Positions 17,819 through 29,049 of a stretch of 64,000 nt of DNA are shown one piece after another. A model generated the notes under the pieces. That model was not told the DNA's origin and did not search any database. It saw only the letters and a program-made list of their open reading frames with translations. The first letter of the stretch is position 1. Every line of letters begins with the position of its first letter. Position numbers and translations under genes: made by a program. The DNA lies in contig CALKGQ010000018.1 of NCBI GenBank assembly GCA_938085425.1, forward strand, positions 1 through 64,000. The letters are read 5' to 3'. The stretch is from an uncultured Flavobacteriales bacterium (GTDB lineage Bacteria; Bacteroidota; Bacteroidia; Flavobacteriales_D; Sanyastnellaceae).

Positions 17819-19015
17819 ATGAGCCAATCACCTCTTCCGCGGTTCAATGACACCGCACAAGCCTTTCAGCACCTCTCCGATGCAGAGCTTCGGAGGGCCG
17901 TCGCGCTGTTTGCCCTGATTGGGAAGCCCTGGCTGGTGCATGTGGGAAGTGCGCTTGCCCATTTGGCCTTGAAGCTTCGCATTCCCCTTGGTTGGGCTGT
18001 CCGTCCGACTGTGTATGCGCACTTCTGCGGAGGCGAGTCCATTGCCGGTTCTGAGACCACGGTGTCCAAACTGGCAGAACACAACGTCCAGACCATCTTG
18101 GACTTCAGCGCCGAGGGCCAAACCGAAGAGGAACGTCTCGACGCCACCTGCGCGGAGGTGCTTGCCGCCATCCAAGCGGCAGATGGCGACAAGCGTCACG
18201 CATTTGCGGTGTTCAAGGTCAGCGGACTTTCTGACAACGGTCTCCTGGAGCGTGTGGGCAATTCCAAAGCCAAATCCTCTGCACTTTCACAAGAAGATGA
18301 ACTTGCATGGCAAAGGGTGCAATCAAGGGTTCGGGCCTTGTGCGAAGCCACAGCGCAAGCCCGTGGCCGGGTGCTGATCGATGCCGAAGAGAGTTGGATC
18401 CAAGACGCCATCGACGACTTGGCGGAAGACATGATGTCCGACCACAACAAGGAGCGCGTGGTCGTTTACAACACCGTTCAGCTGTACCGCCACGACAGGT
18501 TGGGCTACCTCAAAGACATGGCCTCAAGGGCTGACGAAGGAGGCTATCAATGCGGGGTCAAATTGGTGCGTGGGGCCTACATGGAGAAGGAGCGAGAACG
18601 TGCCGCCTCCCTTGGTTGTCCCTCGCCCATCCAACCCGACAAGGCGAGCAGCGACCGAGATTTTGATGCGGCCATGGAGTGGGTCCTCGACCGCATCGAC
18701 CGCATCCATCTCATAGCCGGGAGCCACAATGAAGCGAGCAACATGAAGCTTTGTGAGGGCATGAAGGCCAGAAATTTGGCGCCCAACGATCCGAGAGTTT
18801 GGTTTGCACAACTGTTGGGCATGAGTGACCCCATCACATTCAACTTGGCGGCCATGGGTTACAATGTGGCCAAATACGTGCCGTACGGCCCCATCCGCGA
18901 AGCCATTCCCTATCTCATCCGAAGGGCCCAAGAAAACACCTCCGTGGCAGGCCAGACTTCGAGGGAATTGGAATTGCTCAAGCAAGAGCAAATGCGGCGT
19001 CGCGGAACGTCCTGA
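17819..19015 (+). CDS. putA: Proline dehydrogenase (monofunctional)
   Basis: 398 aa, the usual length of stand-alone PRODH in Bacteroidota. The start at 17819 gives MSQSPLPRFNDT; the longer open frame upstream overlaps the divergent gene and is not credible. Barrel motifs include TILDFSAEG, VFKVSGLSDNGLLERV, VLIDAEESWIQDAIDDL, GVKLVRGAYMEKER, LIAGSHNEASN and YVPYGPIREAIPYLIRRAQEN, which cover the FAD and proline sites. It oxidises proline to pyrroline-5-carboxylate and feeds electrons to the respiratory quinone pool. The P5C dehydrogenase partner is not adjacent. It ends 1 bp before the convergent FecA-like receptor gene. Confidence 0.94.
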   Translation: MSQSPLPRFNDTAQAFQHLSDAELRRAVALFALIGKPWLVHVGSALAHLALKLRIPLGWAVRPTVYAHFCGGESIAGSETTVSKLAEHNVQTILDFSAEGQTEEERLDATCAEVLAAIQAADGDKRHAFAVFKVSGLSDNGLLERVGNSKAKSSALSQEDELAWQRVQSRVRALCEATAQARGRVLIDAEESWIQDAIDDLAEDMMSDHNKERVVVYNTVQLYRHDRLGYLKDMASRADEGGYQCGVKLVRGAYMEKERERAASLGCPSPIQPDKASSDRDFDAAMEWVLDRIDRIHLIAGSHNEASNMKLCEGMKARNLAPNDPRVWFAQLLGMSDPITFNLAAMGYNVAKYVPYGPIREAIPYLIRRAQENTSVAGQTSRELELLKQEQMRRRGTS

Positions 19016-19016
19016 C

Positions 19017-21287
19017 TCAGAATTCCACTGTGGCCCCGAAACGCCAGGCCCGCGGCATGGCAGGGCGCAAGCCATAAGGCCTACGAGCAACCACATACGT
19101 TTGGTCAGTGAGGTTGGTGGCGCCAGCAAACCAAGTCACGTATTCTCCCGGGAACCATCGCAACATGAGGTCAGCGACCTGACATGCATCGGTGCTTTGA
19201 TTGGGAAGCAGTTCGCCTTGGCCTGCAAGGGTGCGCATGGCTGACATGGCCCGAACATTGCCATCAACACTCCACGTGGGGCCTTGCCAACTGATGGAGG
19301 CGTTGAATTGATGTGGGGCCAAGTAGGGCAAGGCATCGCCCGATTCAACCGAGCCCCATGGGTCAAATTCACTTTCAAAAGCCTGGGTGAATTCTGCCTG
19401 TGTAAGCGTGTAGCTCAATCGCACAGGCATGTGGCTGTTTCCATCGAAAAACGCGTCTGCTCCCGTGATCTCCAGAAAGTCAGTGACCAACTCCAATTCC
19501 AATCCACGGGCCATGGAGGCTCCACCATTGAACAAATCTCCAGATCCGGTGCCTCCACTAGCTGTCAAATCGGCACCCAACAAGTTTTGGTGGTCGCTGT
19601 AAAACAACGTTGCTTGACCGCTGAATGCCGGGGAACTAATGCGCGTCCCAAGCTCAACATTCAGGCTGAATTCTGCCTGGGTATCAGGGGAGGAGCCTGG
19701 TGGGACAAAACCCCGATGCGCACCAGCAAACAGGGTCCATGTATCGTCCACAACATCCCAATGCGCTCCCAATCCAGGGAGCCAAACGTTCAAGCGATTT
19801 GTGCGCAATGCTCCGTCACCAGTTCGTTGAAGGTCGTCGCCAAAATCCAATCTCGACAAGGCAATTCGCTCATGACGCAATCCAGGGGTCAAAGTGAGAC
19901 GGCCCCAATGAAGCGCAGCTTGAACATGTCCGGCCAAGGCCTCAGCGGATTCAACTCTGTTCGAAGCCGATCCAGAATCACCCGCCAACATTAAAATCAT
20001 GTTCCCCTCGTCCATGGCATAACGGTCACGCCATTCGAACCGATCCATAAAATCCTCATGGACCCTCATTCCAAAAGTCAATCGGTGCTGTCTCTCCCCC
20101 CCCCAACTCACCCTGCCACGGTGCTGGATTCCTTGGGAACCGTAGACACGGTTGTTTGCTTTCACGTCCAATCCCGCACCTTGAGGTGTGTTCGCACCGC
20201 GAAGCCAACCCAACACTTCCTCAGAACCTCCTTCTAGCACACCACCAAGCGCAATCTTTTGACCCAAAGAGTCCACAGCACGATCCAATTTGTACCAGTT
20301 GCGCTCGAAACGGGTTTGATACGCCTCTGTGGTCAATTTCACGTGGTCAGATACTTTCCATTCATGGCCCAAAACGAAATGGTTGTGAGAAGTGGCCATC
20401 AAGTCCTGGGCAGAGGCTGCGTACCTGCGGTTGGGCGTTTCGTCAAAATCCGCCTGAAACAACCCCAAATACGTTTCCCTCGATTCCTCTTCGCTTGACA
20501 TCGCCTTCCCGCGAAGCAAGTGTTGGCCGTTTTCCGATGTCCACTGCAACTTGGCCACAAGGTCGGCCTTGTCAAATCCAGTGTTTCCTCCTCCGTCCAA
20601 CACCTTAAATCCATCGCTCGCAAGCTGCATCCACTCTAGATTGTACCCCCAAGATCTAGACTTTCCGCCAATGGCAGTGTGGGTTTGCTGGTTCCCAAAA
20701 CTGCCGGTTTCCATTCTCACCCGACCCGCGAGCTGCTCATCAGGGATGGCTGTAGACACCAAGTTCAGCGCACCTCCCGCAGTTTGTGGGCCAAAGGCAA
20801 TTTGACTTCCACCCTTGCGGACTTCGACACTTTCCATGCGTGCCATGGTTGGAAAATAATAGGCAGAGGGTGCGGCATATGGCGCTGGAGCCATCAAAAT
20901 GCCATCCTCCATTAGAGTGATTCTGGAGGAACGCTCGGACCCTGATCCTCGCATGCCCACATTAGGTCGAAGGCCAAATCCGTCTTCTTCCACCAAATTC
21001 AAACCCGCCAGTGCATGCAAGGTTTGCATGGGGTTCGCGTAAGACATCTTCGCCAACATCTTGGAAGAGAGCCTTTGCATCGAGCCCGGAATTTCACTCG
21101 GGTCAAGCGACCCAGCAGCCAATCCTACCTGACCCACCTCGGCCGCGGGCAGCGCGTGCCACATTTGGGTCATGAGGTCCAAACTGTCCTGGGGCTGCTG
21201 CATCAAGGGACCTTGTGCAGATGCCAAAACTGGAAACAAAAGCAAGGAGCATGTCAACCGGAAAGCAGAGCCAAAAGAAATATTCAT
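19017..21287 (-). CDS. TonB-dependent receptor, FecA-like (ferric siderophore/citrate)
   Basis: 756 aa from ATG 21287, with signal peptide MNISFGSAFRLTCSLLLF to ASAQ. The plug domain carries the FecA-family signature: GMRGSGSERSSRITLMEDG, then APAPYAAPSAYYFPTMARM, VRKGGSQI and GPQTAGGALNLVST. The barrel ends GATVEF with a terminal Phe. FecA-type receptors import ferric complexes using TonB energy. No N-terminal signalling domain or sigma/anti-sigma pair is seen, so it is not a FecIR-type transducer. It is divergent from the HmuY-type haem operon across 136 bp, which places iron and haem uptake together. Substrate is inferred from the plug motif only. Confidence 0.88.
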   Translation of the reverse strand: MNISFGSAFRLTCSLLLFPVLASAQGPLMQQPQDSLDLMTQMWHALPAAEVGQVGLAAGSLDPSEIPGSMQRLSSKMLAKMSYANPMQTLHALAGLNLVEEDGFGLRPNVGMRGSGSERSSRITLMEDGILMAPAPYAAPSAYYFPTMARMESVEVRKGGSQIAFGPQTAGGALNLVSTAIPDEQLAGRVRMETGSFGNQQTHTAIGGKSRSWGYNLEWMQLASDGFKVLDGGGNTGFDKADLVAKLQWTSENGQHLLRGKAMSSEEESRETYLGLFQADFDETPNRRYAASAQDLMATSHNHFVLGHEWKVSDHVKLTTEAYQTRFERNWYKLDRAVDSLGQKIALGGVLEGGSEEVLGWLRGANTPQGAGLDVKANNRVYGSQGIQHRGRVSWGGERQHRLTFGMRVHEDFMDRFEWRDRYAMDEGNMILMLAGDSGSASNRVESAEALAGHVQAALHWGRLTLTPGLRHERIALSRLDFGDDLQRTGDGALRTNRLNVWLPGLGAHWDVVDDTWTLFAGAHRGFVPPGSSPDTQAEFSLNVELGTRISSPAFSGQATLFYSDHQNLLGADLTASGGTGSGDLFNGGASMARGLELELVTDFLEITGADAFFDGNSHMPVRLSYTLTQAEFTQAFESEFDPWGSVESGDALPYLAPHQFNASISWQGPTWSVDGNVRAMSAMRTLAGQGELLPNQSTDACQVADLMLRWFPGEYVTWFAGATNLTDQTYVVARRPYGLRPAMPRAWRFGATVEF

Positions 21288-21292
21288 GGGGC

Positions 21293-21300
21293 CAAAGTTG
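21293..21300 (-). promoter_or_regulatory. Putative -7 box CAACTTTG, leaderless spacing
   Basis: It lies five nt before the ATG at 21287. It matches TAnnTTTG except for the first base. An iron-regulated operator would be expected nearby, but I cannot see a convincing Fur-type palindrome. Confidence 0.35.
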
Positions 21301-21411
21301 ATCTCTTTTCTGTCGTCCATACAATCCCCCAAACATGGTAATTTGGAATCGTTCTAAATAAAAAAACCTCCCGTTTGACATTTCGCTGACAGCTTTGGCG
21401 GGGTCTGTTGT

Positions 21412-21419
21412 GACCTTTG
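21412..21419 (+). promoter_or_regulatory. Putative -7 box GACCTTTG, leaderless spacing
   Basis: It lies four nt (AAAC) before the ATG at 21424. It matches TAnnTTTG except for the first base; the identical octamer with the same spacing precedes the gene at 30308. Confidence 0.4.
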
Positions 21420-21423
21420 AAAC

Positions 21424-22668
21424 ATGAACCGTTTCATCGCCATTTTTGTCGCGCCACTTGCGGCTTTTGGAAGTTTCTCATACGCCTCCGCCCAGGAAGT
21501 GACGTACGATCTCCTCTCCATGGGTCCAGGCAATGCCAATGCCCTCTTTTACAGCTTCAGTGAAGGTGTCGTTGGTGAAGCTCCTCTGGACGCTTGGGAA
21601 GTCTCCTTCGATGTGCGGTCCATGGGGAGTACGGCACGCATCAATGGTGCGCTGGGTTTGACATTGTACCCTTATGATGAAGTAGAAGGCTGGGACAGCG
21701 TCACGTTGGACAGCTGGGACATGGGCGAAGCCTACCTCAATGATCCTTCCGATTGGGGCCTTGGGGCTTTTGGCCAAGGTGGAGATGGACTCTTCGACCT
21801 CGGCTGGGGCAACTACGATTTGGTGACCCACATCGTGACCGCGGACAGCATGTACCTCATGCAAATGGGGGATGGCACATGGAAAAAGGTGGCCTTGTTG
21901 GGTTTGCAAGGGGGAACGTACACATTTAGACACGCTAATCTTGATGGCTCCAACGACATCACGCTCGAAATCGACAAGGACGACCACGAAGGAAAGTTGC
22001 AAGCCTATTACAACTTGACAACGAATGAAATGGTGGACTTTGAACCCAGTGCTCCTTGGGACATGGTGTTCACCAAATACATCGAATACGTCGTCCTCCC
22101 GGGCTTCGGTGAACAAGCATATCCTGTGACCGGATGCATGACCCACCCCAATGTTGGTGTCCTTCAAAGAGATGGATTGACCAACCCCGCTGTGGACGGA
22201 ACCTTCACGACGGAAGAAATGTCGTTTGCCAGCAATGAAGTGGGGCATGACTGGAAGACGTGGACAGGGGTGGAATATGTCATTGCTTCAGACCGATGCT
22301 ACTTCGTGCAGTCCCAAACGGGCGACGTTTGGCGTCTTTTCTTCACTGGGTACGGCGGGTCGGCCACTGGCGACATTGAATTGGGCAAGATCCTCGAGTC
22401 AGGGGCAAATGTTTCGGAGGAAATTGGCATGGTCCAACGGTTGGAGGTCTTCCCCAACCCCGTCGAGGCCCATGGCACCGTCACCTTGAGAGGCGACCTT
22501 CCCATCCTCGACATTCAATGCTGGAACATGGCAGGACAACGAGTCCATCCCCATGTTCAAGGTTTGCGGTCTCCTTTGGCAACGATGTCCGGGTTGGATT
22601 CGGGGCTCTACGTTGCCCAAGTGCTGACATCCGGGGGTTCTTCTCGCATCCGTATTCTCGTTCAATGA
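21424..22668 (+). CDS. HmuY-family haem-binding protein carried by a T9SS sorting domain
   Basis: 414 aa. A signal peptide (MNRFIAIFVAPLAAFGSFSYASAQ) without a lipobox leads into an HmuY-like region: the early segment LDAWEVSFDVRS, then a second WDMVFTKYIEYVV, YPVTGCMTHPNVGV and YFVQSQTGDVWRLFFTGY, the order seen in HmuY proteins. From about 335 to the end is a T9SS type A domain (LEVFPNPVEAHGTVTL). HmuY proteins take haem from host or environmental proteins and hand it to a TonB receptor. Classical HmuY is a lipoprotein; this one should instead be secreted by T9SS. Its stop overlaps the start of the receptor gene (ATGA). Confidence 0.8.
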   Translation: MNRFIAIFVAPLAAFGSFSYASAQEVTYDLLSMGPGNANALFYSFSEGVVGEAPLDAWEVSFDVRSMGSTARINGALGLTLYPYDEVEGWDSVTLDSWDMGEAYLNDPSDWGLGAFGQGGDGLFDLGWGNYDLVTHIVTADSMYLMQMGDGTWKKVALLGLQGGTYTFRHANLDGSNDITLEIDKDDHEGKLQAYYNLTTNEMVDFEPSAPWDMVFTKYIEYVVLPGFGEQAYPVTGCMTHPNVGVLQRDGLTNPAVDGTFTTEEMSFASNEVGHDWKTWTGVEYVIASDRCYFVQSQTGDVWRLFFTGYGGSATGDIELGKILESGANVSEEIGMVQRLEVFPNPVEAHGTVTLRGDLPILDIQCWNMAGQRVHPHVQGLRSPLATMSGLDSGLYVAQVLTSGGSSRIRILVQ

Positions 22669-24692
22669 GCGTCCCGCGCCGGTCATTTGGTCGAATCTCC
22701 ATGCTAGGCTGTCTCCTCGGGGCAGCCTCGCTTGTCCATGGCCAAACCACTGAGCGCGACAGCATCACTTGGAAGGCTGACTTGACAGAAGCCGTCGTTA
22801 CTGGAGAAAGACAGGCGGTGAAGGCGCACAATGCGATGCGGGTGATCCGCAAAATGGACTTGAAGGATGCTGCCTATGCCTCCTCACAAACCCTTCAAGA
22901 TGCCCTCCGTTTGCAGAATGGCATCCGCATGAGCCAGGACCCAGCCTTGGGCGCGGCACTGACCATGAATGGACTGGGGGGGCAAAACGTGAAAATCATG
23001 ATCGACGGGGTGCCGCTGGCAGGCCGCCTTGGCGACGACATCGATCTGGCCCAGATCCGACTGGACAACATTGCATCCATTGAAATCGTGGAAGGCCCCA
23101 TGGCGGTGGAATACGGCACCAACTCGCTCGCTGGGACCATCCATTTGATTTCCAAAAAGGGACAGGGAACGGGCACAAGTGCTGAGGGTTCGGTGCGGTA
23201 CGAAAGTGTCGGAGACTACACCCAATCGGCAGGGCTGACTTGGCGTGGCGAGGGGCATACGACGACCGTCCAAATGTCGCACCACGCCTTTGACGGATGG
23301 TCTCCTTCCGACCCCGGTGTCGATTGGATCCAAGACTTTGTCGCGGACAGCGGACGCGTCAGCGATTGGAACCCGAAGCGCCAAGGACAGTTCAGTTTGA
23401 CCTCAAGGTGGACCACCAAGCATTGGAACCTCACCCCAAAGGTCACGGTCTTGGGCGAGCGGATCCACAACCGGGGGTTGCCGCGCAGCCCTTATGGCAC
23501 GACGGCATTCGACGATGTGTACCACACCACGAGGTGGTTGCCGTCTTTCCATGCCAAACGCTTTGGTGCGGATGGCGTGCAATGGGACATCGTCGCCTCT
23601 TGGCAGCGTTACGAAAGACGAAAGGAGGCGGTGGTGACCGATTTGACCACCCTTTCGCAAACGCCCCAATCTGACGCCCAACAAGACACCACACGCGTCC
23701 TGGCTTCCATGACCCGTGGGACGCGCCACTTGGCCTTGCCTGGAAGATGGGGCGGCCGCTTGGGATGGGATGCGCAACACGAGCGCTACGTTTCAGGTCG
23801 CGTGGAAGAGAGGCGGCAGGACATGTTGGATGCCGCTGCTTTTGGCATCCTTTCCTACAGCGGAAGGAATGCAGAAGGCCAAGTGGGCCTACGACAAGCT
23901 TGGAATTCTTCCTTTGGCAGTCCTCTGCTGCCCAGTGCTAATGTGCTGTTGAAGCGTGGCGAGCATCGCGTGCGCGCTTCCTACGCCAGAGGGTTCCGCG
24001 CCCCAACCTTGAAGGAGCTTCATTTCCGGTTCGTGGACATCAACCATCTGCTGTTTGGGAACGAAAACCTCGATGCAGAAGCCTCGCATTACGGGGAAGT
24101 CAGCTGGACATGGGCAGGCCAAGGATGGCGTCTCCAAGGCCGTGGCTTTGTGAACAGTGTCGAAGACCAAATCACCTTGGTGGACCAGCTCGATGGAACG
24201 TTCCGCTATGACAACGTCGAGTACTTTCAAGCGCATGGCCTCGGGCTTCAAGTCGGGTTCAACCAACCCAAATGGTCCGTCCAATCAGGCTTTTTGGTCA
24301 CAGGGCAGAGACAAGGCATCTCCACCCTCGTGTTGCCCTCCAAATCTCTGTACACTCCGGAAGCGACCTTCTCTGGCACTTGGGTGGCCTCTGAGCACTG
24401 GCGCGTGAATGCCAATGCCAAGATCCACGGCACTCGGCCCCGCTACGTGGCAGGGGACAGCGGCGGCATTGAGGTGGCTGAGACGGAAGCGTACACTTTG
24501 CTCGATGCACAAATCACCTACCTGCGGGGCCCTTGGAGCCTGAACGTGGGTTGGAACAACCTGTTGGACGTGACCGCCTTGAATGCCACCACAGCCTCTG
24601 GTCCTCATGCTGGAGGCACAGGTTGGGTTGCCTGGGGTCGAAGTGTGGCCCTGACGCTCAAGTACAACCTTCAACGCCCTTCCGCCTCATGA
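22665..24692 (+). CDS. TonB-dependent receptor, HmuR-like (haem uptake)
   Basis: 675 aa from ATG 22665, with signal peptide MSVPRRSFGRISMLGCLLG to VHGQ. A TonB-box-like DLTEAVVTGE precedes the plug (LQDALRLQNGIRMSQD, MIDGVPLAGRLGDDIDL, IEIVEGPMAVEYGTNSLAG, IHLISKKG). The barrel includes ASYARGFRAPTLKELHFRF, which contains the FRAP box typical of haem and haemophore receptors, and ends in LTLKYNL. It is flanked by two HmuY-type genes with 4-bp overlaps on both sides, which is the main reason to call it the haem receptor. Ligand specificity is inferred from context and the FRAP region. Confidence 0.85.
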   Translation: MSVPRRSFGRISMLGCLLGAASLVHGQTTERDSITWKADLTEAVVTGERQAVKAHNAMRVIRKMDLKDAAYASSQTLQDALRLQNGIRMSQDPALGAALTMNGLGGQNVKIMIDGVPLAGRLGDDIDLAQIRLDNIASIEIVEGPMAVEYGTNSLAGTIHLISKKGQGTGTSAEGSVRYESVGDYTQSAGLTWRGEGHTTTVQMSHHAFDGWSPSDPGVDWIQDFVADSGRVSDWNPKRQGQFSLTSRWTTKHWNLTPKVTVLGERIHNRGLPRSPYGTTAFDDVYHTTRWLPSFHAKRFGADGVQWDIVASWQRYERRKEAVVTDLTTLSQTPQSDAQQDTTRVLASMTRGTRHLALPGRWGGRLGWDAQHERYVSGRVEERRQDMLDAAAFGILSYSGRNAEGQVGLRQAWNSSFGSPLLPSANVLLKRGEHRVRASYARGFRAPTLKELHFRFVDINHLLFGNENLDAEASHYGEVSWTWAGQGWRLQGRGFVNSVEDQITLVDQLDGTFRYDNVEYFQAHGLGLQVGFNQPKWSVQSGFLVTGQRQGISTLVLPSKSLYTPEATFSGTWVASEHWRVNANAKIHGTRPRYVAGDSGGIEVAETEAYTLLDAQITYLRGPWSLNVGWNNLLDVTALNATTASGPHAGGTGWVAWGRSVALTLKYNLQRPSAS

Positions 24693-25693
24693 CGCCACAG
24701 CACACTTGTCCTTGGTGGTGTGCCCTGCTGGCCTGCGTGGGGATTCTCACAGGGTGCATCGAGCATGAGTTGCCCATCCCGGCCAGACCGCCTGGAGACG
24801 CCGTGGTGCGCGCCTTGGACATGGGGTCCGACTATGGGGTGCAACTTCATGTGGACTTGGCAAGTGGCGACATTGTGGCCGCCCACCCCAAGTCGGCTTG
24901 GTGCCTTCGCATCCACCACGGCGCCGACACCGTGTGGATGGACCTGAACAGCAGTCGATTGATGCAGTTCACCATGTTGAACGGCCCGCTGGTGTCCATG
25001 GACTCCACCACTCCTTTGTCGTGGGAAGTGTTTTCCTCCGAGGGGCGAGACGAAAGGAATGCCTTGAGTGTGGGACAAACATGGGCCTTGGATTTGGGAA
25101 GAGACCCACTCGATCCAGCAGCCTCGCTTGGGTTCCTTCGAATGGAAATCCTCGAAGTTGGAGGCAACTCGGTGAGCGTTCGCGTCGCGGACCTTTATGC
25201 GGACCCCCAAGAAGGTCTGGATTGGGACACGCTGGACGTGGCACAAAACCCGCTGGTGTCCAACACCCACGTGAGCCTGCTGGCCCGTGAGGTGGTCGAC
25301 ATTGAACCCCACGTGGGCCTCTGGGATGTTTACTTCACACAATTCACCGCATTGGTGCAAGAGGAGCCCGGAAGCACCATCCCCCCGATCCCTTATTTGG
25401 TCACTGGGGTCCTAAGCCACTCGGAGGGCACCCAAGTGATGCAGCCCCAAGAAGGGGATTGGGACGACTGGATCGAATGGACATGGCCAGAGGAAGAACT
25501 CTCCAGCGATTGGGACGTTGTGGGATTTGATTGGAAAATCTACGACCTCGACGAAGGCTCGTATGAGGTGAACCCCAATGACATTTATGGCATCCGGACC
25601 GCTGACGGAAGGGAATTCTTGCTCAGGTTTTTGGACTTCTACGACGACCAAGGCAACACCGGGCGGTTCACCTACGAGATCTTGGAACGCTGA
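24689..25693 (+). CDS. HmuY-family haem-binding lipoprotein
   Basis: 334 aa from ATG 24689, which overlaps the receptor stop by 4 bp. The N-terminus is a lipoprotein signal with a perfect lipobox LTGC (Cys 23). The HmuY pattern is clear in the second half: VGLWDVYFTQFTAL, PYLVTGVLSHSEG, IYGIRTADGREFLLRFL and the closing DFYDDQGNTGRFTYEILE. It should sit on the outer membrane and shuttle haem to the adjacent TonB receptor. The two HmuY-type proteins share the family pattern but little exact sequence, so they are not a recent duplication. The gene ends 6 bp from the convergent DUF4249 gene, with no obvious terminator between. Confidence 0.82.
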   Translation: MTPQHTCPWWCALLACVGILTGCIEHELPIPARPPGDAVVRALDMGSDYGVQLHVDLASGDIVAAHPKSAWCLRIHHGADTVWMDLNSSRLMQFTMLNGPLVSMDSTTPLSWEVFSSEGRDERNALSVGQTWALDLGRDPLDPAASLGFLRMEILEVGGNSVSVRVADLYADPQEGLDWDTLDVAQNPLVSNTHVSLLAREVVDIEPHVGLWDVYFTQFTALVQEEPGSTIPPIPYLVTGVLSHSEGTQVMQPQEGDWDDWIEWTWPEEELSSDWDVVGFDWKIYDLDEGSYEVNPNDIYGIRTADGREFLLRFLDFYDDQGNTGRFTYEILER

Positions 25694-25699
25694 CCCGTC

Positions 25700-26659
25700 T
25701 CACGGGATGGTGACCACCACTTTGTTGGTGACCCCAAACACGCCAAAGCCGTCAGGGATGTTCCCTTGGATGCTTGTAGGCTCCGCAAAAGGATTGCCCG
25801 ACGCATTTTCGTAGGCATGGACACTGTCGAAGTACCGAACCAGATCTTCGGTGGGCCGTTGGACCACAAGGCGGTACTCTCCTGACCATTCGGTGATGTC
25901 TTCGTCCTCCTCTCCGGCGTACATGTCAAACACAAGGTTGGCCATGGAGACATTGTCCGATCCGTTGTCTTGGGCCAGCCAGCAGGCACAGCCGCTGTTG
26001 TAATCGACCCTAGGGTCTGGGTAAGACAGGTCCCCTGCATTGTACCAATCTTTGCCGGTCAACGTGTCCCTGAATTGCAATTGAATCAGGTAATCGTCGC
26101 GCTCACTTGGTCGGTTTTCCAGGTCCACAGTGAGGCGATGGTAGTAGAAAACATACCCCCACCCTTCGTCCACAGAATCGGCAAAGGCTTCAAAGGTGCT
26201 TTCCACCACAGGACGCTCAGGCAGTGGTTGGACCAGGGACAGCGGTTCAAAGTGCGGAGAGGCATCCACCTCGAGGGACAGCGGCCCTTCTTCTAGGACC
26301 AAAGCATTTGGCAATGGGATTTTCATGAAGGGGCCTGAATACCATGCGTTCCATGGATCGGCCTCCACCCAATGGGCGGAATCACCCTGTGCAAGGACGA
26401 CCTCTCCTTGGCGCAAGGACAAGGTCGCATCGCGCAAGGGCGTGCTCCCGCCCACCGACAACACTCCTGCAGATTGGTAGACGCTGGCGTACAATGCCGT
26501 ATCACCTGGTGACACAAACATGGTGACTGCAAGACGGGGATCATGCTCCGGAAACTCGATTTCACGGACCACTCCGCTCTCCAGTTTTTGGCATGACATG
26601 CACATCACAAAGAGGGCAAGGATGCCCAAGGGCGTGTGCCGAAGACGGGGGGAAGGCAT
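25700..26659 (-). CDS. DUF4249 lipoprotein, partner of TonB receptor
   Basis: 319 aa. The ATG at 26659 shares its A with the upstream TGA (TGATG), so translation is probably coupled to the receptor. The N-terminus is a lipoprotein signal (Cys 23 in CMSC). DUF4249 features include an early DPRLAVTMFVSPGDTALYA, DATLSLRQGEVVL, an extended YYHRLTVDL strand region, and the C-terminal SGNPFAEPTSIQGNIPDG that leads to a GVFG strand. DUF4249 proteins occur next to a carboxypeptidase-regulatory TonB receptor in Bacteroidota and are thought to be surface binding partners. The substrate is unknown. Confidence 0.85.
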   Translation of the reverse strand: MPSPRLRHTPLGILALFVMCMSCQKLESGVVREIEFPEHDPRLAVTMFVSPGDTALYASVYQSAGVLSVGGSTPLRDATLSLRQGEVVLAQGDSAHWVEADPWNAWYSGPFMKIPLPNALVLEEGPLSLEVDASPHFEPLSLVQPLPERPVVESTFEAFADSVDEGWGYVFYYHRLTVDLENRPSERDDYLIQLQFRDTLTGKDWYNAGDLSYPDPRVDYNSGCACWLAQDNGSDNVSMANLVFDMYAGEEDEDITEWSGEYRLVVQRPTEDLVRYFDSVHAYENASGNPFAEPTSIQGNIPDGFGVFGVTNKVVVTIP

Positions 26660-29049
26660 CAGAAGTGGAAGCGCCATGCGATGGAGGGGATGACTGGAAA
26701 CAAACCGTACTCTCGAATGACGCGGGAACCGTCCGGCTCCTCCTCGGCGAGTGCAAAGAATGGATTCAGGTTGTTGTAAGCATTGTAAAGGCTGAAGATG
26801 AGCGCACGGTTCCCGTCGGTGTCCGGTTTCACCCGCGTCATGCTGACGTCCAGTCGATGGTAGGGACTCATGCGGTAGGCGTTCCTTTCGCTGGGCACCT
26901 CGTAGGACGGGGCCGCCAAGGCTCCAAACTCCACGCCGTTGTAAATGCTCTCTGTCAGGGTCACAGCTCGGCCTGTCCCGTACACCCATGCCGCGGAGGC
27001 GCTCCACATCTCATTGATGTCTTGGGTCAACACGACGCTCACGTCATGGCGTCGATCGTAGGTGAAAGGAAACCACTCCCCACTGTTCAAATCGTCAAAC
27101 TGCCGGTTGCTCCAACTCAACGTGTACCCGATCCATCCCGCGGTCGATCCTCGTTTCTTTTGGAAGAGGACTTCCATGCCATAGCTGTTGCCGATGCCCT
27201 GCGTCACTTGGCTTTCCCAATTGCCATCCAAGTCCGCCAAAAAACCCCCACCCTCACGGTAGCTCAAAAGGCCATCCATTTCCTTGTAGTACCCCTCTAC
27301 ACTGCATTCGACATCTCCATTGCCGAAGGATGTCGCCAAACCGGCTGCCACCTGCCAGCTCTGCTGGGGTCGAATGTTTTGTGTCGACGGCAACCAAAGG
27401 TCCGTCGGGAGACTGAGTCCCTCATTGGTCAAAAGATTCACGAATTGGGTCATCTCGGCATAACTCGCTTTGAATGCCCACCCTTCGGCAAATTTCCAAT
27501 TCAAGGCCAGTCGAGGCTGCACACTCGCATAGGTGGTGTCCTGTACACTCAGCAAAGAGAGGTGGCTGCCGACGTTCAGGCTGACATTGGGGCCCAACCT
27601 GAGTTCATCCTCCGCGTAGAGATACCGCTCCGTGCTGGACAAATTTCCCTGGCCAATCAACGTGTCCAATGGGTTTTCCTGGCCAAAGTCCAGGGCCAAT
27701 TGCAGGGCCCCTGGAGAAAAGGTATGTCGGGTGATGTTGGCCCCGAATCGAATGAAATGGCGGGCGTTGGGTGCAAAATCCACATCCACCTTTGCAGAGT
27801 GGTCTTCGATGCCCGATTGGTACAAGGAAGCAAAGCGGGTGGCGTTGGTGTCTCCATTCTCAATGATCTCCGTGCTCAAGTCCACCCCTGTGTTGAAGTT
27901 GTAGACACTGTGCGTCAAAGACACATTGGAGAACATCCTTGGGCCCACCTCATGGTTCCAACGAAGGGCTTGGATCTGGTTTTGCCAATCCAACCCGAAG
28001 GACAAATCCTCCTTGATGGAGCGTCCTTGGTCGGCATCCCTGTTGGAGGAGGTCACCCCAAAGTCATCCATTCCCGAGAAGGCACTGAGGTAGAGGCGGT
28101 CTTTGGGCCCCACCTTCCAATTGAGCTTCCCATTGAGGTCGTAAAAGAAATAGGCTGGGTTGGTGCTGAAATCCGGATCGTTGCTCGTGGCCGAACGGAT
28201 GATCGGGTTGAGCAAAAGGTCGAGGTACGTCCGTCGCGCACTGAGCATAAAGCTGGCTTTGTCCTTCACAATGGGGCCCTCCACTGTCAGCTTCGAAGCG
28301 ATGATGCTGATGTTGCCGTCGCCATGGTATTCCCTCATGTTCCCGTCCTTCATGTTGATCTCCAGCACGGACGAGAGCCTGCCGCCAAAGCGCGCGGGAA
28401 ATCCGCCTTTGGTGATGGCCATGTTCTTCACCGCATCGGCGTTGAACACACTGAAGAAGCCAAACAAATGACTTACACTGTACAGTGGAACTCCGTCAAG
28501 CAGCATCAGGTTTTGGTCTGGACTGCCTCCCCGAACGTACAACCCACTTGTCCCTTCGCCTCCCGACTGCACCCCCGGCAGCAATTGAAGCGACTTGAGC
28601 AAGTCCACTTCCCCGCCGATGGCTGGCAAAGACTTGATTTGATCGATGGGGATTTCCATCTTGGACATCTGCACTTGCTCCTCGATGCGGCTTTCATTTT
28701 CACCCGTCACAACAGCCTCTCCCAGCTTCGTACCGGGCACCATGGCCAAATTGAATTTGACATTTTCCCCGGACAAATCGACCTCCAAACGTTGCCGTTC
28801 GTAACCAATGTAGGCCACCTGCAAATTGTAGGTCTTGGCAGGAAGCGTGAGGGTGTAAAACCCATAGAGGTTGCTCACGACGCCAACAGAAGCGTCCTCA
28901 GACCACACCGTGGCACCAATCAAGGTTTCTCCCGTGGCCGCATCTGTGATGTATCCACTCAGGGTGAATTGCGGCACACTTTGGCCCCAAAAAGACAATG
29001 AAGCACTGCTGAGCCAGAGGATGCTGAAGCAAAGAAACGTTGATCTCAT
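26659..29049 (-). CDS. TonB-dependent receptor with carboxypeptidase-regulatory-like domain
   Basis: 796 aa. Signal peptide (MRSTFLCFSILWLSSASLSF), a CarboxypepD_reg-like domain at about 27-105 (SGYITDAATGETLIGATV, GFYTLTLPAKTYNLQVAYIG), then the plug (GEVDLLKSLQLLPGVQS, LYVRGGSPDQNLMLLDGVP, FPARFGGRLSSVLEI) and a barrel ending IAWRFHF. This layout is the standard partner of DUF4249 lipoproteins, and that gene follows with a 1-bp overlap. The system is SusC-like in principle but lacks SusD and any carbohydrate enzymes, so the imported substrate cannot be named. Another barrel gene lies 10 bp upstream and is probably cotranscribed. Confidence 0.9.
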   Translation of the reverse strand: MRSTFLCFSILWLSSASLSFWGQSVPQFTLSGYITDAATGETLIGATVWSEDASVGVVSNLYGFYTLTLPAKTYNLQVAYIGYERQRLEVDLSGENVKFNLAMVPGTKLGEAVVTGENESRIEEQVQMSKMEIPIDQIKSLPAIGGEVDLLKSLQLLPGVQSGGEGTSGLYVRGGSPDQNLMLLDGVPLYSVSHLFGFFSVFNADAVKNMAITKGGFPARFGGRLSSVLEINMKDGNMREYHGDGNISIIASKLTVEGPIVKDKASFMLSARRTYLDLLLNPIIRSATSNDPDFSTNPAYFFYDLNGKLNWKVGPKDRLYLSAFSGMDDFGVTSSNRDADQGRSIKEDLSFGLDWQNQIQALRWNHEVGPRMFSNVSLTHSVYNFNTGVDLSTEIIENGDTNATRFASLYQSGIEDHSAKVDVDFAPNARHFIRFGANITRHTFSPGALQLALDFGQENPLDTLIGQGNLSSTERYLYAEDELRLGPNVSLNVGSHLSLLSVQDTTYASVQPRLALNWKFAEGWAFKASYAEMTQFVNLLTNEGLSLPTDLWLPSTQNIRPQQSWQVAAGLATSFGNGDVECSVEGYYKEMDGLLSYREGGGFLADLDGNWESQVTQGIGNSYGMEVLFQKKRGSTAGWIGYTLSWSNRQFDDLNSGEWFPFTYDRRHDVSVVLTQDINEMWSASAAWVYGTGRAVTLTESIYNGVEFGALAAPSYEVPSERNAYRMSPYHRLDVSMTRVKPDTDGNRALIFSLYNAYNNLNPFFALAEEEPDGSRVIREYGLFPVIPSIAWRFHF

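Follow-up and report, generated by a model that had tools for sequence, protein, structure and literature searches.

A T9SS-tailed tandem-HmuY protein, a TonB-dependent receptor and an HmuY-related lipoprotein encoded together in Bacteroidota: a probable haem-acquisition unit

In the Hmu system of Porphyromonas gingivalis (HmuY-HmuR-HmuSTUV), the haem ligands of HmuY are His134 and His166, and the loop bearing His166 closes on the haem; for Tfo, Met120 and Met149 (Met140 and Met169 of the full-length protein) are the proposed ligands (PMC6200708). The hmu operons of Porphyromonas vary, and some species have two or three HmuY homologues (PMC12106395). Delivery of an HmuY protein by the type IX secretion system (T9SS) has already been published and is not new: Flavobacterium columnare HmuY (C6N29_01035), in which an HmuY domain is joined to a Por_Secre_tail domain, is described as being secreted by this system (PMC9618737). 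One hmuY locus of Prevotella intermedia continues into a gene for a T9SS-domain protein (PMC10434189), and HmuY and HmuR of Tenacibaculum maritimum, which are encoded in tandem (PMC5561996), are major proteins of the secretome (PMC10288586). HfpY of Flavobacterium psychrophilum binds one haem per protein (1:1), and its operon also encodes HfpR and a DoxX-family protein; the same report describes FRAP and NxxL motifs with a His between them as the motif set of haem/haemoglobin receptors (PMC9331221). Here we describe a gene triplet related to these systems in positions 1 to 64,000 of contig CALKGQ010000018.1 (assembly GCA_938085425.1, an uncultured Flavobacteriales bacterium), a stretch referred to as the window. 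The three genes encode Y1, a protein with two HmuY repeats and a T9SS sorting domain; R, a TonB-dependent receptor; and Y2, an HmuY-related lipoprotein (Table 1).

We read Y1-R-Y2 as a haem-acquisition unit in which Y1 is the catcher, R the receptor, and Y2 more likely a docking or lid subunit than a carrier, and we give this reading a probability of roughly 0.64. Y1 would cross the outer membrane through the T9SS, to be either released or attached to the surface, and its first HmuY repeat would capture haem outside the cell by means of a gate-like loop carrying His136. R would move the haem across the outer membrane, energised by TonB, using its FRAP/NxxL loop with His461. Y2, a putative paralogue of Y1 with a predicted lipoprotein anchor and a gene tightly linked to that of R, appears to have lost the ligand loop; its most likely role is to dock haem-loaded Y1 on R, or to form a cap over R, instead of carrying haem. 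The unit would feed a host cell that is apparently unable to make haem. Haem binding by Y1, docking by Y2, the direction of transfer and the location at the cell surface are the steps that we infer.

Gene structure, fold, HmuY repeats, export signals, synteny, conserved residues and the absence of hem genes were all computed directly. The Y1/R and R/Y2 junctions are each a 4-bp ATGA overlap. Y1 begins with a sequence that looks like a signal peptide by eye, and its tail scores 23.9 bits against NCBIfam TIGR04183 (cut-off 23; 27.4 bits in the genome search) and 16.8 bits against Pfam Por_Secre_tail, below the cut-off of 27. Residues 338-414 match the C-terminal domain of the T9SS cargo 8gl6_D with Z 10.0. 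The translocon was checked in the host genome by a search for SprA, which gave a match of 560.6 bits at a contig end, covering model positions 3-543 of 2319. The host has a small genome rich in T9SS; in its 2.07 Mb, the type A sorting domain has 49 matches, 46 of them over the cut-off. In R, TonB plug and barrel domains are recognised, and residues 444-447 read FRAP. Among 72 R proteins (that of the window plus 71 complete open reading frames [ORFs] scoring >400 bits), two FRAP residues and His461 are invariant (Table 1), N466 is kept in 69, L469 in 71 and A446 in 58. ORFs, domains and lipobox thus agree with the original prediction, made from the letters of this DNA, of three genes with 4-bp overlaps that encode an HmuY-type protein with a T9SS domain, a TonB receptor with a FRAP region and an HmuY-type protein with an LTGC lipobox, the two HmuY relatives bearing different delivery signals.

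The triplet is widely kept. When species genomes were scanned with the peptide pattern Nx[VI]G[YHN]DWKx[YFL], 297 relatives of Y1 emerged, of which the best 80 loci were analysed. Y1, R and Y2 stand together in 68 of the 80, and the other 12 run into contig ends: in 11 of them the break falls no more than 2.5 kb downstream of Y1, and in L152 it is upstream and cuts through Y2. The order is Y1-R-Y2 in 66 of the complete loci and R-Y2-Y1 in two; in the 66, Y1 and R are separated by at most 250 nt in 41 cases and otherwise by 0.7-4 kb. Because all three genes recur in so many loci, the triplet is not a product of chance. The record titles of the relatives name Flavobacteriales, Crocinitomicaceae, Cryomorphaceae and Saprospirales, as well as Sphingobacteriales, Cytophagaceae, Chitinophagaceae and Marinilabiliales. 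One genome (G051) holds two copies of the triplet, on different contigs (L065, L066). Within the GTDB family of the host (114 genomes), all three genes are present in 21 of the 34 stretches fetched, and most of the others are cut by contig ends; one stretch of 16 kb (L091) has a Y2-like fragment only, with no R or Y1.

A more distant sample comprises 20 stretches from Bacteroidota genomes, each spanning 16 kb around a Pfam HmuY match. Seven hold Y1, and four of these seven have all three genes (L215, L216, L231, L232), with Y1 divergent from R-Y2 in L215, L216 and L232. R accompanies a Y2-like protein without Y1 in a further seven (L217-L221, L223, L228). In the remaining six, the protein found with R matches the single-domain HmuY profile described below. 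From this gene content, R is the partner most often retained, and Y1 and Y2 are each missing from some stretches. Conservation of the unit is strong among near relatives and less strict at greater distance.

On single sequences, the scores against Pfam HmuY (PF14064) are 22.0 bits for Y1 and 24.7 bits for Y2 and do not reach the cut-off of 27, so the HmuY label rests on profiles and fold. A profile of Y1 relatives matches HmuY in the PDB with E 1.7e-4, and a profile of Y2 relatives matches it with E 3.3e-4 and 8b6a with E 6.8e-9. The alignments comprise 54 of the 80 loci plus the window for Y1 and 55 plus the window for Y2, and the corresponding AlphaFold2 models have mean predicted local distance difference test (pLDDT) values of 91.5 (55 sequences) and 91.9 (56 sequences). 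In the VIA listing, the Y1 model matches 6r2h with Z 13.6 and a root-mean-square deviation (rmsd) of 2.9 over 131 residues, and 3h8t with Z 13.3 and rmsd 2.9 over 130 residues; the Y2 model matches 3h8t with Z 15.5 and rmsd 2.3 over 134 residues. Rows 1-8 for Y2 are all HmuY-family structures, after which Z falls to only 5.7, while rows 1-7 for Y1 are of the HmuY family and are followed by T9SS cargo tails on residues 338-414. The T9SS copy is accordingly predicted to fold like HmuY, as is the lipoprotein. A Foldseek search with the whole of Y1 mixed immunoglobulin (Ig)-like and HmuY matches and put structures other than HmuY in the top rows; the VIA rows separated these. Comparison of single sequences with the PDB by phmmer was uninformative, and a Pfam HmuY search of the host genome found no match there or in any control genome, a search superseded once the profile and fold evidence had been obtained.

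The matched ranges in the VIA listing stretch across both repeats, from where repeat 1 starts to where repeat 2 ends; each repeat may form an HmuY sandwich of its own, or strands may be exchanged between the two halves. According to the profiles, Y1 is a tandem HmuY: its two repeats match each other with E 1.5e-7, and a profile of 18 single-domain HmuY proteins (loci with an ORF of at most 262 aa, out of 30 from a phylum-wide search) matches it twice (Table 1). The same profile matches Y2 twice, with E 2e-11 and, over a piece of 36 columns, E 1.7e-6. Compared with each other, the two halves of Y2 match weakly and over a short length (25 columns, probability 58.6, E 9.5e-5), so its duplication is argued from these HmuY matches and from its relation to Y1, which extends along the length (E 5.8e-47). 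By this homology Y2 is most likely a tandem HmuY as well, and Y1 and Y2 would be paralogues. A clearer tandem HmuY than either Y1 or Y2 is encoded at L227, L229 and L230, where the gene after that of a receptor specifies a lipoprotein-like protein in which two HmuY domains score strongly (101-111 bits each).

The two proteins differ in their candidate haem ligands. A profile (A7) made from the single-domain HmuY proteins and Y1 repeat 1 was aligned to PDB sequences, and in this alignment the ligand loop sits a few residues after a conserved Trp. It reads GGWLEFSH in HmuY, TWIVENPM in Tfo (position 149), KWLNVDKSNM in BVU_2192 and WGNYDLVTH in Y1 repeat 1; position 141 of the HmuY chain would be residue 166 if the chain starts at 26. 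All 55 aligned Y1 proteins have His in the column of H136, the only column of that alignment in which His reaches half. WGxYxxxTH occurs in 79 of the 80 Y1 ORFs, the exception (L145) being a shortened ORF. By-eye counting of the same column in the 18 single-domain proteins gave 12 His, two Met, three Asn and one Gln. The Met of the BVU_2192 loop aligns in the H136 column, and the proposed ligand Met of Tfo lies about two columns before it. In Y1 repeat 2, the 11 residues that follow the matching Trp include no His in any of 55 proteins. When the Y1 and Y2 profiles are aligned, the ligand loop is missing from Y2 repeat 1; in Y2 repeat 2 the loop after the matching Trp has a His in 5 and a Met in 1 of 56 proteins. 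Across the 56 aligned Y2 no His or Met is invariant, and the Y1 loop motif is found in 0 of 68 Y2 ORFs. Judged from these alignments, Y1 repeat 1 alone of the four HmuY repeats keeps a conserved His/Met in the ligand loop. Of the expectation in the original prediction that both HmuY proteins handle haem, the part concerning Y1 is consistent with its invariant loop His, while the part that made the lipoprotein a second carrier finds no conserved His/Met at the corresponding place.

Haem economy of the host fits a need for import. In the host genome, which is 97.8% complete, no match was found to ferrochelatase (hemH), ALAD (hemB) or URO-D (hemE), in searches that matched 8, 11 and 8 of 14 control genomes, respectively. 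Since these three genes are absent yet a haem-copper oxidase (COX1) is present, the host is predicted to be a haem auxotroph. A table of haem genes was drawn up for 50 of the 114 family genomes (at least 90% complete, at most 5% contaminated, completeness being rounded, as for G067 at 90). Its 12 triplet carriers, the host among them, were hand-picked, with G104 (6% contaminated) excluded, and the counts for non-carriers come from tallies; G048, which has a partial Y2 match and whose stretch L091 was described above, is a non-carrier. hemH is absent from 6/12 carriers vs 3/38 non-carriers (Fisher p 0.0033, uncorrected for phylogeny) and hemB from 6/12 vs 5/38 (p 0.014, likewise uncorrected), and the six hemH-less carriers are spread over five genera. 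The host's single FecCD importer lies on another contig (C49:11500-20500, L236), with a binding protein and an ATPase, and a gene of the ChaN haem-binding family is close to this set. The FecCD set and the ChaN gene may provide this genome, which has no hemB, hemE or hemH, with a route for haem across the inner membrane.

Genes inside the operons of relatives also point to the substrate. In two loci (L111, L171), a periplasmic binding protein, an FecCD permease, an ATP-binding cassette (ABC) ATPase and a HemS/ChuX gene lie between Y1 and R; HemS/ChuX genes encode a haem-degradation protein, and one is also the next gene after the tandem HmuY gene of L230. These operon genes, the FRAP/NxxL receptor and the loss of hem genes are in line with the original prediction that haem is the likely substrate. 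The ORFs between Y1 and R, called mechanically and in part spurious, number 58 in 26 loci and include 13 CbiX, 11 PepSY_TM_like_2 and 7 DUF6607. A CbiX-domain protein followed by a PepSY transmembrane protein is found inside the operon of L119, L122, L131, L141, L157 and others, and several of the CbiX-domain proteins have a lipoprotein-like start by eye. The operon CbiX protein may be an extracytoplasmic chelatase acting on haem. DUF6607 ORFs recur in the operon as well (seven in all, among them L168:10261-11238 and L110:4724-5668), a hint that this family has a role connected with haem.

A number of observations weigh against a haem-acquisition unit of this kind. With respect to the ligand, His166 of HmuY lies about three columns before the column of H136, so that the loop is shared and the column is not, and the insertion that bears His134 in HmuY is absent from the A7 profile, which includes Y1 repeat 1. 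Repeat 2 of Y1 has a Met after the matching Trp in 22 of 55 proteins (18 of 55 in the best single loop column). The top NCBIfam name for R is TonB-B12, with 95.6 bits, far under its cut-off of 599.7; TonB-hemin (TIGR01785) gives 69.6 bits, also below its cut-off (316.85). Three of the seven Y1 loci of the distant sample lack a partner in their 16-kb stretch: R but no Y2 accompanies Y1 in L222 and L224, so that some loci do without Y2, and in L226 Y1 and Y2 occur without R. hemH is present in six of the 12 carriers, including G072 of the host genus, and the association of hemH and hemB loss with the triplet is uncorrected for phylogeny. Deletion of hmuY in F. columnare had no growth effect in the media tested, as reported in PMC9618737. 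Finally, two positions in Y2 are often occupied by a potential ligand: M92 is Met in 39 of 56 proteins, including that of the window, and position 221 is His in 32 of 56, with Ala in the window.

Those two positions also bear on a two-carrier relay, proposed in the original prediction, in which both proteins bind haem and released Y1 hands it to anchored Y2 and Y2 to R. In its favour, Y1 and Y2 share the HmuY fold and are usually encoded with R, many Y2 keep Met92 or His221, and the invariant Tyr49 and Tyr236 of Y2 could be ligands. However, no His or Met of Y2 is invariant, and L222 and L224 pair Y1 with R with no Y2 in the stretch. Because Y2 lacks the loop in repeat 1 and a conserved His/Met in repeat 2, the relay is left without positive evidence; we regard it as unlikely, and Y2 as a simple receiver was rejected as first choice for want of a conserved ligand. 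It is more doubtful still that Y2 is the main capture protein and Y1 an accessory, such as a surface-bound haem reservoir or a hemoprotein binder. The seven distant stretches in which R and a Y2-like protein occur without Y1 indicate that R-Y2 can stand alone, but the only invariant ligand-loop His that was found is in Y1, and Y1 with R and no Y2 occurs too. Import of another tetrapyrrole or metal complex, for instance cobalamin or another porphyrin, is highly improbable: the best NCBIfam score of R (TonB-B12) and the CbiX-like chelatases (13 of the 58 intervening ORFs) would favour it, but it is opposed by the HemS/ChuX and ABC-importer genes inside two operons, by the invariant FRAP residues and His461 of R, by the more common loss of hemH among triplet carriers, and by the lack of a cobalamin riboswitch at 18500-27500, where no Rfam family matched at the gathering threshold.

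If Y1-R-Y2 is the haem-acquisition unit described above, with Y1 as catcher and Y2 as docking or lid subunit, a broader proposal can be made, tentatively and with some doubt: that a division of labour is widespread in Bacteroidota, in which a duplicated tandem HmuY has become a T9SS-delivered catcher with a gate-loop His and a ligand-free docking or lid lipoprotein, both encoded in one operon and exported to the outer membrane by two routes, with haem-auxotrophic lineages depending on them. Were this true, it would explain the haem supply of uncultured small-genome Bacteroidota that have lost haem synthesis, and the HmuY family would offer a case in which one paralogue captures haem and the other serves receptor docking, each delivered by its own surface-export pathway. 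H136 and the Y2-R pair offer a residue and a protein pair that are directly testable.

In the window, a further TonB receptor is divergent from the operon at 19017-21332 (-) and corresponds to the divergent FecA-like receptor of the original prediction. It is siderophore/FecA-like, with 120 bits against TIGR01783, under the cut-off of 223.5. The upstream region is common to this gene and Y1, and common iron control of the two is therefore possible. On the 3' side of Y2, a convergent pair at 25700-29049 (-) encodes a DUF4249 protein and a TonB-linked receptor with a SusC/RagA-like N-terminal match. No hmuSTUV set lies 3' of the receptor, as it does in the P. gingivalis-type hmuYRSTUV operon, the genes after Y2 being on the other strand.

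Table 1. Positions of the Y1-R-Y2 genes and of their principal features in the window
Feature	Position	Strand	Evidence
Y1, T9SS-tailed tandem-HmuY protein, 414 aa	21424..22668	+	ORF; fold; TIGR04183 tail
Y1 HmuY repeat 1, residues 25-186	21496..21981	+	HmuY profile E 1.1e-12 (residues 35-172)
Codon of His136 in WGxYxxxTH, candidate axial haem ligand	21829..21831	+	Invariant in aligned Y1
Y1 HmuY repeat 2, residues 187-336	21982..22431	+	HmuY profile E 2.1e-5, probability 76.6
Y1 T9SS type A C-terminal sorting domain	22447..22665	+	TIGR04183; 8gl6_D match
R, TonB-dependent receptor, 675 aa	22665..24692	+	Plug and barrel
R FRAP-to-His461 segment (FRAP...NH) of the FRAP/NxxL region	23994..24047	+	R445, P447, H461 in 72/72
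Y2, HmuY-related lipoprotein, probably two HmuY repeats, 334 aa	24689..25693	+	ORF; fold; profile matches
Y2 lipobox Cys23 codon (LTGC)	24755..24757	+	Cys23 in 56/56 aligned Y2

Among the known systems, P. gingivalis Hmu resembles the locus in the HmuY fold and in a gene adjoining that of a FRAP/NxxL TonB receptor with a loop His, and the candidate ligand of Y1 lies in the same loop as His166 of P. gingivalis HmuY. Unlike Hmu, the window has two paralogous HmuY relatives, each apparently of two repeats and one of them with a T9SS route; its operon is without hmuSTUV, and the His134 insertion is missing. F. columnare HmuY shares with Y1 the pairing of an HmuY domain with a Por_Secre_tail and the T9SS route, but the available text of PMC9618737 describes neither a lipoprotein partner nor a receptor triplet. 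The Hfp locus of F. psychrophilum (hfpR-1813-hfpY) likewise combines a receptor, iron-regulated in that case, with an HmuY-like haem-binding protein, HfpY; it differs in that its operon encodes a single HmuY-like protein together with a DoxX-family membrane protein, and in the partial motif conservation of HfpR, whereas BfpR of the same species has FRAP/NxxL and the loop His as R does (PMC9331221). Two receptor and single-domain HmuY pairs (L233, L234) have a receptor followed by an HmuY protein with a lipoprotein-like start, as in R-Y2, and the loop motif GWYNYNPETH of L234 corresponds to WGNYDLVTH of Y1; they differ in having one protein with one HmuY domain and no T9SS partner seen in the stretch. 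In the open-licence PMC papers searched, no description was found of a single receptor flanked by HmuY proteins of the T9SS and lipoprotein kinds, of tandem HmuY proteins, or of a ligand asymmetry such as that between Y1 and Y2. Relative to the described systems, this locus is new in pairing tandem-HmuY paralogues on two export routes, in that one of the two has lost the ligand loop, and in its link to haem auxotrophy.

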